From: Thermococcus paralvinellae
GTDB taxonomy: Archaea > Methanobacteriota_B > Thermococci > Thermococcales > Thermococcaceae
Length of the DNA stretch: 64,000 nt
Direction: 5' to 3'
Assembly (NCBI RefSeq): GCF_000517445.1
Contig: NZ_CP006965.1
Location: forward strand, 1,526,681-1,590,680
In this document: positions 54,640 to 56,924 of the stretch, piece after piece
How the letters are laid out: the number at the start of each line of letters is the position of its first letter
How positions within the stretch are numbered: position 1 is the stretch's first letter
Notes under the pieces: generated by a model
The model's input: only the letters and a program-made list of their open reading frames with translations
Told to the model about the DNA's origin: nothing
The model's database searches: none
Program-made: the position numbers and the translations under genes

Positions 54640-54756
54640 TTTCCCCTTTTAGATATCATTTCATCGATTGATAAAGCAGTACACACATTAATAACAAGGC
54701 ATAACTTTTGATGAATCTGAAACAAAATTTTTATGCAAACTCATGAAATAAAAAGC

Positions 54757-55482
54757 ATGAGAATGATAGGGCTAAAAATAGAGGATGCTCTGAAAATGTT
54801 CCCTGAGCTTCAAAAATACATAAAAAATGGCAAGCTTGATTTTGGCAACAGAAAAGCAAGGATTTTATACAATAAGGCTGTTGCAAAAGCTGTTTTTGAC
54901 ATTGAGGTGGAGTATCATCCAAGGGGCCTAATAACTCCTCCGATTTCACGATACATTTTTCTAAAGACATTTTTGCGAGGTGGAGAAAAAGTCCTCGAAA
55001 TTGGGACAGGTCATTCTGCGTTGATGGCGATTATGGCAGCTAAGTTGCTTAACTGCGAAGTTTGGGCTACAGAGATTAATGAAGAATTTTTTGAGTATGC
55101 AAAAAGGAATATTAAGCGCAACAAAGTTCAAGTTAAGCTCATAAAAAGCAAAGGAGAAATCATAAAAGGCTTAATTCCAGAGGAAGAAGAATTTGATGTT
55201 ATATTCTCAGCTCCTCCTTATTATGAGAAACCCACAAAGGGAGTTTTAACCCCTATTGAAGCCGTTGGTGGAGGAAAATATGGAGAGGAGTTTTCAATAA
55301 AGCTGTTAAATGAAGCCAGAGAATACTTGAAGCCTCTCGGAAAAGTTGCCCTCTTTTTACCAGATAAGAAACCTCTGCTGAAGGTTATAACAGAAAAAGC
55401 TGAAGAACTTGGATATACAGTCAAAGACATAAAATTTAAAGCAGGGACAAGAGTTAGACACTCTTTAATTTTCACTCTATAG
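54757..55482 (+). CDS. RlmF/METTL16-like SAM methyltransferase
   Basis: A 241-residue class I methyltransferase. SAM motif I is VLEIGTGHSALMAIMAAKL, acidic loop VWATEINEEFFEYAKRN, and the catalytic motif IV is IFSAPPYYEKPTKGV. An APPYY in place of NPPFY still fits N6-adenine RNA methyltransferases of the RlmF/METTL16 group. The ATG at 54757 has a TATA-like TTTTTATG about 26 bases upstream and no ribosome binding site, so a leaderless start is likely; the frame is open from 54733. The target is unknown. A C/D box RNA gene abuts its stop codon on the other strand. Confidence 0.82.
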   Translation: MRMIGLKIEDALKMFPELQKYIKNGKLDFGNRKARILYNKAVAKAVFDIEVEYHPRGLITPPISRYIFLKTFLRGGEKVLEIGTGHSALMAIMAAKLLNCEVWATEINEEFFEYAKRNIKRNKVQVKLIKSKGEIIKGLIPEEEEFDVIFSAPPYYEKPTKGVLTPIEAVGGGKYGEEFSIKLLNEAREYLKPLGKVALFLPDKKPLLKVITEKAEELGYTVKDIKFKAGTRVRHSLIFTL

Positions 55483-55543
55483 CGTCAGACCGTGGGCGTA
55501 TCTTCATTGCAGTGCTCAGAGGAGGTGCTTTCTCTTCATTCGC
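55482..55543 (-). ncRNA. C/D box guide sRNA
   Basis: A 62-nt RNA on the minus strand, starting at 55543. Boxes in order: C ATGAAGA (55539-55533), D' CTGA (55519-55516), C' ATGAAGA (55507-55501), D CTGA (55488-55485). GCG at the 5' end and CGC at the 3' end form a terminal stem. The D' guide is GAAAGCACCTCCT and the D guide TACGCCCACGGT. Both C boxes carry AAGA in place of AUGA, a tolerated variant. Predicted targets by the D+5 rule are AGGAG (fifth base methylated) GTGCTTTC and ACCGT (fifth base) GGGCGTA. The last base overlaps the methyltransferase stop codon. Confidence 0.82.
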
Positions 55544-55564
55544 TAAAGAAAGTACGATCCTTTA

Positions 55565-55572
55565 ATTTATAA
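55565..55572 (-). promoter_or_regulatory. TATA box of the minus-strand C/D box RNA
   Basis: TTATAAAT on the minus strand is centred about 25 bases upstream of the RNA's first base at 55543, exactly the archaeal TATA-to-start spacing. Confidence 0.65.
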
Positions 55573-55660
55573 GGTTAAGTCTCTGTATGAAGTACCATTA
55601 TCAACATAAGATACTAGCTATAAAACATCTAATGAAATGCAGAAAGAGAAAAACAAATCA

Positions 55661-56851
55661 TCACTTCATATCCTCAACATATAAGAACAGACATTTAAGA
55701 TATTCAGTATCCTTTGAAGCCATCAGTATTGGATGATCTGGAGCTTGTGTTCTGTAGGGTTCAAGCATCTTGAGGAATTTGCCAGCTTTTGCTGCAGCCG
55801 CAATTATCATATCCTTAAACGCCTGCAAATCAACATGCTGGGAGCATGAGCAAGTTACTAAGATTCCCCCATCCTTTACAAGCTTAAGTCCTTGATAGTT
55901 CACATTGAAATAAGCTCTTAATCCTCTCTTTAAGTCCTTCTCATGCTGGACGAATGCAGGAGGATCGAGGATTACTATATCAAACTTTTCTCCTTTCTTC
56001 TGGAGCTTTTCCATTTCAGGAAATGCTGAACCCACTATGAACTCCATCTTGTCCTCAACACCATTGAGCTTTGCATTCTCCTTTGCCATCTCTATCGCTT
56101 TTGGAGATTTGTCAATGGCTATCACTTTTTCAGCTCCAGCAACTGCAGCATGGATTGCAAAGCCCCCCGTGTAAGTGAAAACATCAAGAACCTTTTCACC
56201 GCCTTTAATGTATTTTTCAAGAGCTATTCTGTTTTCTCTCTGGTCGAGGAAAAATCCAGTCTTTTGTCCACGCATGTCAACTATGAATTTAGCCCTCCCC
56301 TCTTCAATTATCGTTCTATATTTTTCTTTACCAAGCAATACACGCTCAATCTCTGGTAATCCTTCCCTTCTCCTTGATCTCCCCGTATTCTTTTCAAAAA
56401 CGGTCTCTATTTCTGGCTCAACTTCCATTATCGCTTCAGCAACGTCAAGCTTAAATCGCTCCATACCAGCGCTTGAAATTTGGAGGGCGGCTATATCATT
56501 GAAGCGATCAACAATTAATCCCGGCAAATAATCTGCCTCACCATAGACCATCCTGTAAACGTTGCCATAACGAAGAACTTTCTTCCTATATTCGTTTGCT
56601 TTTCTGATTCTCTCTTTGAAGAGTTCTTTGTTAATTTCCACATCTTTCTCTTTTGTTAGCAAACGAACCATTATATTCGAGTTTGGATTTGCAAACCCTT
56701 TACCTAAGAACTTTCCTCCACGAGAATACACCTCAACAATATCTCCTGGTTTTATCTCCCCCTCAGTTCTAATAACCCCCTTTTTGAAAATAATCATCGC
56801 ACCTTTTTGAAGTGCTCGTGAAGCCTGAGCATCAACATAAACTCTCGCCAT
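55661..56851 (-). CDS. RlmI-like rRNA m5C methyltransferase with PUA domain
   Basis: A 396-residue class I methyltransferase. A PUA domain fills residues 1-75 (VIRTEGEIKPGDIVEVYSRGGKFLGKGFANPNSNI). The EEHEY-like middle domain holds NVYRMVYGEADYLPGLIVDRFND. The catalytic part shows DMRGQKTGFFLDQRENR, VLDVFTYTGGFAIHAA (SAM motif I), VILDPPAFVQ and VTCSCSQH with the cysteine of m5C enzymes. It matches the Pyrococcus PH1915-type protein and bacterial RlmI. The ATG at 56851 follows GGTGGTGAAA. The position methylated is unknown. Confidence 0.93.
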   Translation of the reverse strand: MARVYVDAQASRALQKGAMIIFKKGVIRTEGEIKPGDIVEVYSRGGKFLGKGFANPNSNIMVRLLTKEKDVEINKELFKERIRKANEYRKKVLRYGNVYRMVYGEADYLPGLIVDRFNDIAALQISSAGMERFKLDVAEAIMEVEPEIETVFEKNTGRSRRREGLPEIERVLLGKEKYRTIIEEGRAKFIVDMRGQKTGFFLDQRENRIALEKYIKGGEKVLDVFTYTGGFAIHAAVAGAEKVIAIDKSPKAIEMAKENAKLNGVEDKMEFIVGSAFPEMEKLQKKGEKFDIVILDPPAFVQHEKDLKRGLRAYFNVNYQGLKLVKDGGILVTCSCSQHVDLQAFKDMIIAAAAKAGKFLKMLEPYRTQAPDHPILMASKDTEYLKCLFLYVEDMK

Positions 56852-56924
56852 TTTCACCACCTACCAAATAGTTAAAGCGATAGATATTTAACTCTTGAGA
56901 TGAAATTATATAATGGTGAGTTCT

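Follow-up and report, generated by a model that had tools for sequence, protein, structure and literature searches.

The RNA encoded on the minus strand at positions 55543-55483 of the window (the whole 64,000-nucleotide stretch of Thermococcus paralvinellae DNA that was analysed) is an ordinary, already known guide RNA, sR43 of Rfam. It is probably a housekeeping archaeal C/D guide with two targets, helix 34 (h34) of 16S rRNA and tRNA-Ser. Judging from its family, sR43 would assemble with L7Ae, Nop5 and fibrillarin. The D' guide would pair with AGGAGGUGC in h34, which predicts Gm at G1000 of the organism's own 16S rRNA. The D guide would pair with CCGUGGGCGU at the junction of the anticodon stem and variable arm of tRNA-Ser, which predicts Um44. 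We infer methylation of both sites.

Results

The C/D box RNA proposed in the initial annotation is real, and its span was one base too long. With the Rfam covariance model for sR43, RF01128, the segment 55483-55543 (minus strand) scored 58 bits (gathering cut-off 45; E = 2.3e-13), and both conserved guides, GCACCUCC and ACGCCCACGG, are present. Thermococcales orthologs support the identification. Reading along the minus strand, box C (ATGAAGA) occupies 55533-55539 and is followed by the 13-nt D' guide GAAAGCACCTCCT at 55520-55532 and box D' (CTGA) at 55516-55519. Box C' (ATGAAGA) lies at 55501-55507, the 12-nt D guide TACGCCCACGGT at 55489-55500 and box D (CTGA) at 55485-55488. With its C, D', C' and D boxes, guides of about 12 nt and an intact 5-bp terminal stem (UAGCG/CGCUA), sR43 has the architecture of an archaeal C/D guide. 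Each guide can form a target duplex that spans the N+5 position, 9 bp with 16S h34 and 10 bp with tRNA-Ser. Thermodynamic folding of the RNA alone was uninformative (z = 0.75), as is expected for C/D RNAs.

The RNA shares its two guides, its four boxes, its length and its genomic conservation with the Pyrococcus C/D box sRNA described by RF01128. It differs in having T in place of A beside D' and a longer D'-C' spacer, whereas its C box, ATGAAGA, agrees with the model consensus. The initial annotation pointed to ATGAAGA in both C boxes as a variant. This holds for the present RNA, yet the base in question varies freely among relatives (G43/A23/C16/T6, n = 88) and carries no special meaning. 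The TATA box described in that annotation is present as TATAA at 55567-55571 (minus strand), 26-28 nt upstream of the RNA 5' end.

Two RNA methyltransferase-like genes flank sR43 (window 54733-56860). The convergent neighbour at 54733-55482 (plus strand) encodes an RNA methyltransferase-like protein (Pfam Methyltransf_10), and its stop codon abuts the sR43 3' end. The upstream neighbour at 55661-56860, on the same minus strand as sR43, encodes an RlmI-like rRNA m5C methyltransferase with a PUA domain. The RlmI-like gene directly precedes sR43 in many relatives.

sR43 was found in 89/94 Thermococcales genomes, including 73/74 near-complete ones. The sole near-complete genome in which it was not detectable (G035, complete, 1.52 Mb) retains both targets, h34 and matching serine tRNAs. 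In the 21 non-Thermococcales genomes from the same phylum, the box-plus-guide pattern was not found. One genome, G024, was taken as T. kodakarensis from its matching 16S coordinates and from the position of its ortholog, 1593071-1593134, which coincides with ncRNA03 at 1593064-1593134. For ncRNA03 in wild type T. kodakarensis, 7,565 small-RNA reads aligned and there were 403 circular reads (PMC9014305, Table 1). The circular form was lost in the RNA ligase knockout, which gave one circular read (PMC9014305). The two orthologs share the same two guides, and in T. kodakarensis the RNA is expressed and circularised by Rnl (PMC9014305). ncRNA03 follows the RlmI-like gene at a distance of about 20 nt and has no start site of its own listed (PMC9014305), whereas a TATA box precedes sR43 here.

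The D' guide ends in CACCTCCT, which is identical to the 3' end of the organism's own 16S rRNA (GATCACCTCCT), as the initial annotation had claimed for the anti-Shine-Dalgarno (anti-SD) octamer. That annotation left two options, a coincidental rRNA target and pairing with ribosome binding sites of mRNAs. The best rRNA target of the D' guide is AGGAGGTGCATGG in 16S h34, with nine contiguous pairs starting beside D'. In this duplex (-18.2 kcal/mol) GCACCTCCT of the guide pairs over 9 bp with AGGAGGUGC, and the fifth pair falls at G1000, which corresponds to E. coli G1050 in our alignment. When the D' guide was shuffled at constant composition, 2.7% of trials still produced an anchored 9-bp pairing with rRNA; by itself the pairing is only moderately significant. 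Among 44 tRNAs scanned for a D' target, the best score was only 7.5.

Conservation is the stronger argument for the h34 target. The guide core GCACCTCC (55521-55528) is invariant in 88/88 genomes while the flanking guide bases vary, position 1 being A47/T39/C2 and position 10 being A74/T13/G1. Positions 11-13 are conserved despite having no pairing with 16S. The h34 sequence AGGAGGTGCATGG / GAGGAGGTGCATGGCC is identical across the Thermococcales 16S genes recovered, save one aberrant contig, and compensatory change within the Thermococcales therefore cannot show. In the 13 genomes with T at guide position 10, the h34 duplex gains 1-2 pairs (about -18 to -20 kcal/mol). The invariant core and invariant 9-bp site thus favour the rRNA option of the two. 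Conservation of the guide among Thermococcales holds for the core; the 13-base complement AGGAGGTGCTTTC, put forward as a unit, is not conserved, since guide positions 1 and 10 vary.

Thermococcales 16S rRNA carries an internal AGGAGGUG in h34 (positions 996-1004 of the organism's own 16S) that matches the anti-SD tail of the same molecule over 8 bp without a mismatch. Because 16S holds both this SD-like sequence and the anti-SD tail, the octamer in the D' guide is best explained as a by-product of targeting h34.

Ten contiguous pairs join positions 2-11 of the D guide to CCGUGGGCGU of tRNA-Ser(GGA) and tRNA-Ser(UGA) in a duplex of -21.2 kcal/mol, and no other tRNA among the 44 scanned pairs as well. 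The pairing segment ACGCCCACGG lies at 55490-55499. The fifth guide position (N+5) faces U44, as counted by hand along the cloverleaf. ACGCCCACGG is unchanged in 68/72 genomes that keep the D guide, with variable bases on either side, so that the conserved stretch matches the tRNA-Ser footprint exactly. The initial annotation had suggested looking for targets of ACCGTGGGCGTA. A search of rRNA and the genome with ≤1 mismatch gave no target, and it missed tRNA-Ser because the tRNA differs at two end positions. The check thus yielded no perfect rRNA match, yet it led to a tRNA that the annotation had not anticipated.

The D guide is replaced or degenerate in 16 genomes, all of which keep D'. Loss is associated with change in tRNA-Ser: in a table of 58 scorable genomes compiled by hand, the D guide was lost in 7/9 genomes without a matching serine tRNA and in 5/49 with at least one (mean matches 0.4 vs. 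2.2; Fisher p = 7.9e-5, uncorrected for phylogeny, which overstates the evidence as many of the genomes are related). Two genomes (G016 and G034) keep the D guide without a matching tRNA-Ser.

In 16 Thermococcales genomes (L094-L109) the replaced D guide mostly gave way to sequences like GAAAACGGGT. Their D'-C' spacer starts with ACCCGG, which can pair with the former D guide (ACCCG/CGGGT), and their D' guide is intact, often with gained 16S pairing.

Discussion

The prediction for h34 can be compared with the P. abyssi 30S subunit, in which cryo-EM at 3.2 Å and mass spectrometry identified 44 modifications, none of them a ribose methyl at h34 position G1015; the ribose-methylated sites are only Am373, Cm1376 and ac4Cm250 (PMC7005279). 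The numbering of that study is ours plus 12, as fixed by three ac4C sites in CCG motifs (PMC7005279). The structure counts against methylation of h34, and at 3.2 Å it is not conclusive.

The missing methyl group in P. abyssi (PMC7005279) would suit a different function for sR43, mainly as an rRNA chaperone. During assembly its D' guide would cover AGGAGGUG of h34 and keep it from pairing with the anti-SD tail of 16S, and methylation would be slight or absent. Chaperone roles have been proposed for C/D sRNAs (PMC7994747). The perfect 8-bp complement between h34 and the 16S 3' tail has a predicted energy of -16.2 kcal/mol, weaker than the -18.2 of guide and h34. We nevertheless consider this unlikely. 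The boxes and guide register of sR43 are normal for methylation, one genome without sR43 has an unchanged h34, and AGGAGGTG is also present in h34 elsewhere in the class, with no matching guide detected there.

A second alternative keeps D' as it is and places the D-guide target in 16S h21 (ACCGUGGGG), with a predicted Um577, rather than in tRNA-Ser. The eight contiguous pairs are in the correct register, and there would be nothing unusual in an RNA with two 16S guides. But this pairing leaves three conserved D-guide bases unpaired while using the freely varying position 1, and a match of 8 bp arises in 19% of trials with shuffled D guides. The h21 site also has one and the same sequence in all four 16S genes examined, which makes it an unlikely cause of the D-guide losses. 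On these grounds h21 seems an improbable target. The h21 site (U577 region) includes the CCG that bears ac4C590 in P. abyssi (PMC7005279 numbering).

The two functions could also be combined, D' acting as an anti-SD mimic that would shield h34 from the anti-SD tail of its own 16S during assembly while the D guide would install Um44 in tRNA-Ser. We give this little credence; if true, one RNA would serve maturation of both the small subunit and the serine tRNAs.

The speculative option in the initial annotation, that D' pairs with mRNA Shine-Dalgarno sequences and regulates translation, is very improbable. Complements of 12 bases of D' with ≤1 mismatch occur at nine other genome sites, three of them in leaders that read GGAGGTGCTTTT(G)ATG. 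The genes behind them are those for type 2 IPP isomerase, CO dehydrogenase CooS and TrpRS, as named from their protein sequences. These leaders form 11-12 Watson-Crick pairs plus one G-U with D', longer than the 16S match, and the leader duplex is the more stable (-21.9 vs. -18.2 kcal/mol). However, the D' bases that separate the leaders from 16S are those that vary, position 10 among A/T/G and position 1 among A/T/C, so that no conserved complementarity to specific leaders was found. About 88 GGAGGTG leaders were estimated for this genome from a small sample, of which about two are expected by base frequencies to have CTTT next; the three GGAGGTGCTTTT leaders beside ATG that the suggested genome-wide leader check returned are roughly what chance gives. 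The three genes are functionally unrelated, and an 8-nt anti-SD would match many mRNAs indiscriminately. A 13-base mRNA or rRNA target, AGGAGGTGCTTTC, was rejected: its 12-base core has no second perfect match in the genome and its flanks are unconserved. Regulation of mRNAs by sR43 is thus unsupported.

The preferred reading, a C/D guide for 16S h34 and tRNA-Ser, can be placed beside several known systems. Archaeal C/D sRNAs aimed at tRNAs are known for tRNA-Leu, tRNA-Met and tRNA-Trp (position 34), and include sR50. sR43 would resemble them in having a guide directed at a tRNA, but it would act on U44 of tRNA-Ser, and its second guide would be directed at rRNA. The Pyrobaculum tRNA guides are without a second target (PMC7994747). 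In eukaryotes, Trm44 is known to introduce Um44 into tRNA-Ser (PMC9957541). The tRNA and the modification, predicted in our case, would be the same (PMC9957541), but Trm44 is a protein enzyme and the sR43 enzyme would be RNA-guided. The literature searched contained neither an archaeal guide for tRNA-Ser Um44 nor targets for sR43; the original Pyrococcus paper and snoRNAdb, which lay outside that search, may already list sR43 targets. The tRNA-Ser target is interesting and possibly unreported.

For the D' guide, h34 offers a simpler rRNA explanation in place of the attractive, unsupported idea of an anti-SD regulator. For the D guide, a specific predicted tRNA target, Um44 of tRNA-Ser, can now be assigned to a guide that is widespread in the Thermococcales. 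If these predictions are confirmed, rRNA and tRNA would share a single guide RNA, and archaea would make by RNA guidance what eukaryotes make with the protein Trm44.
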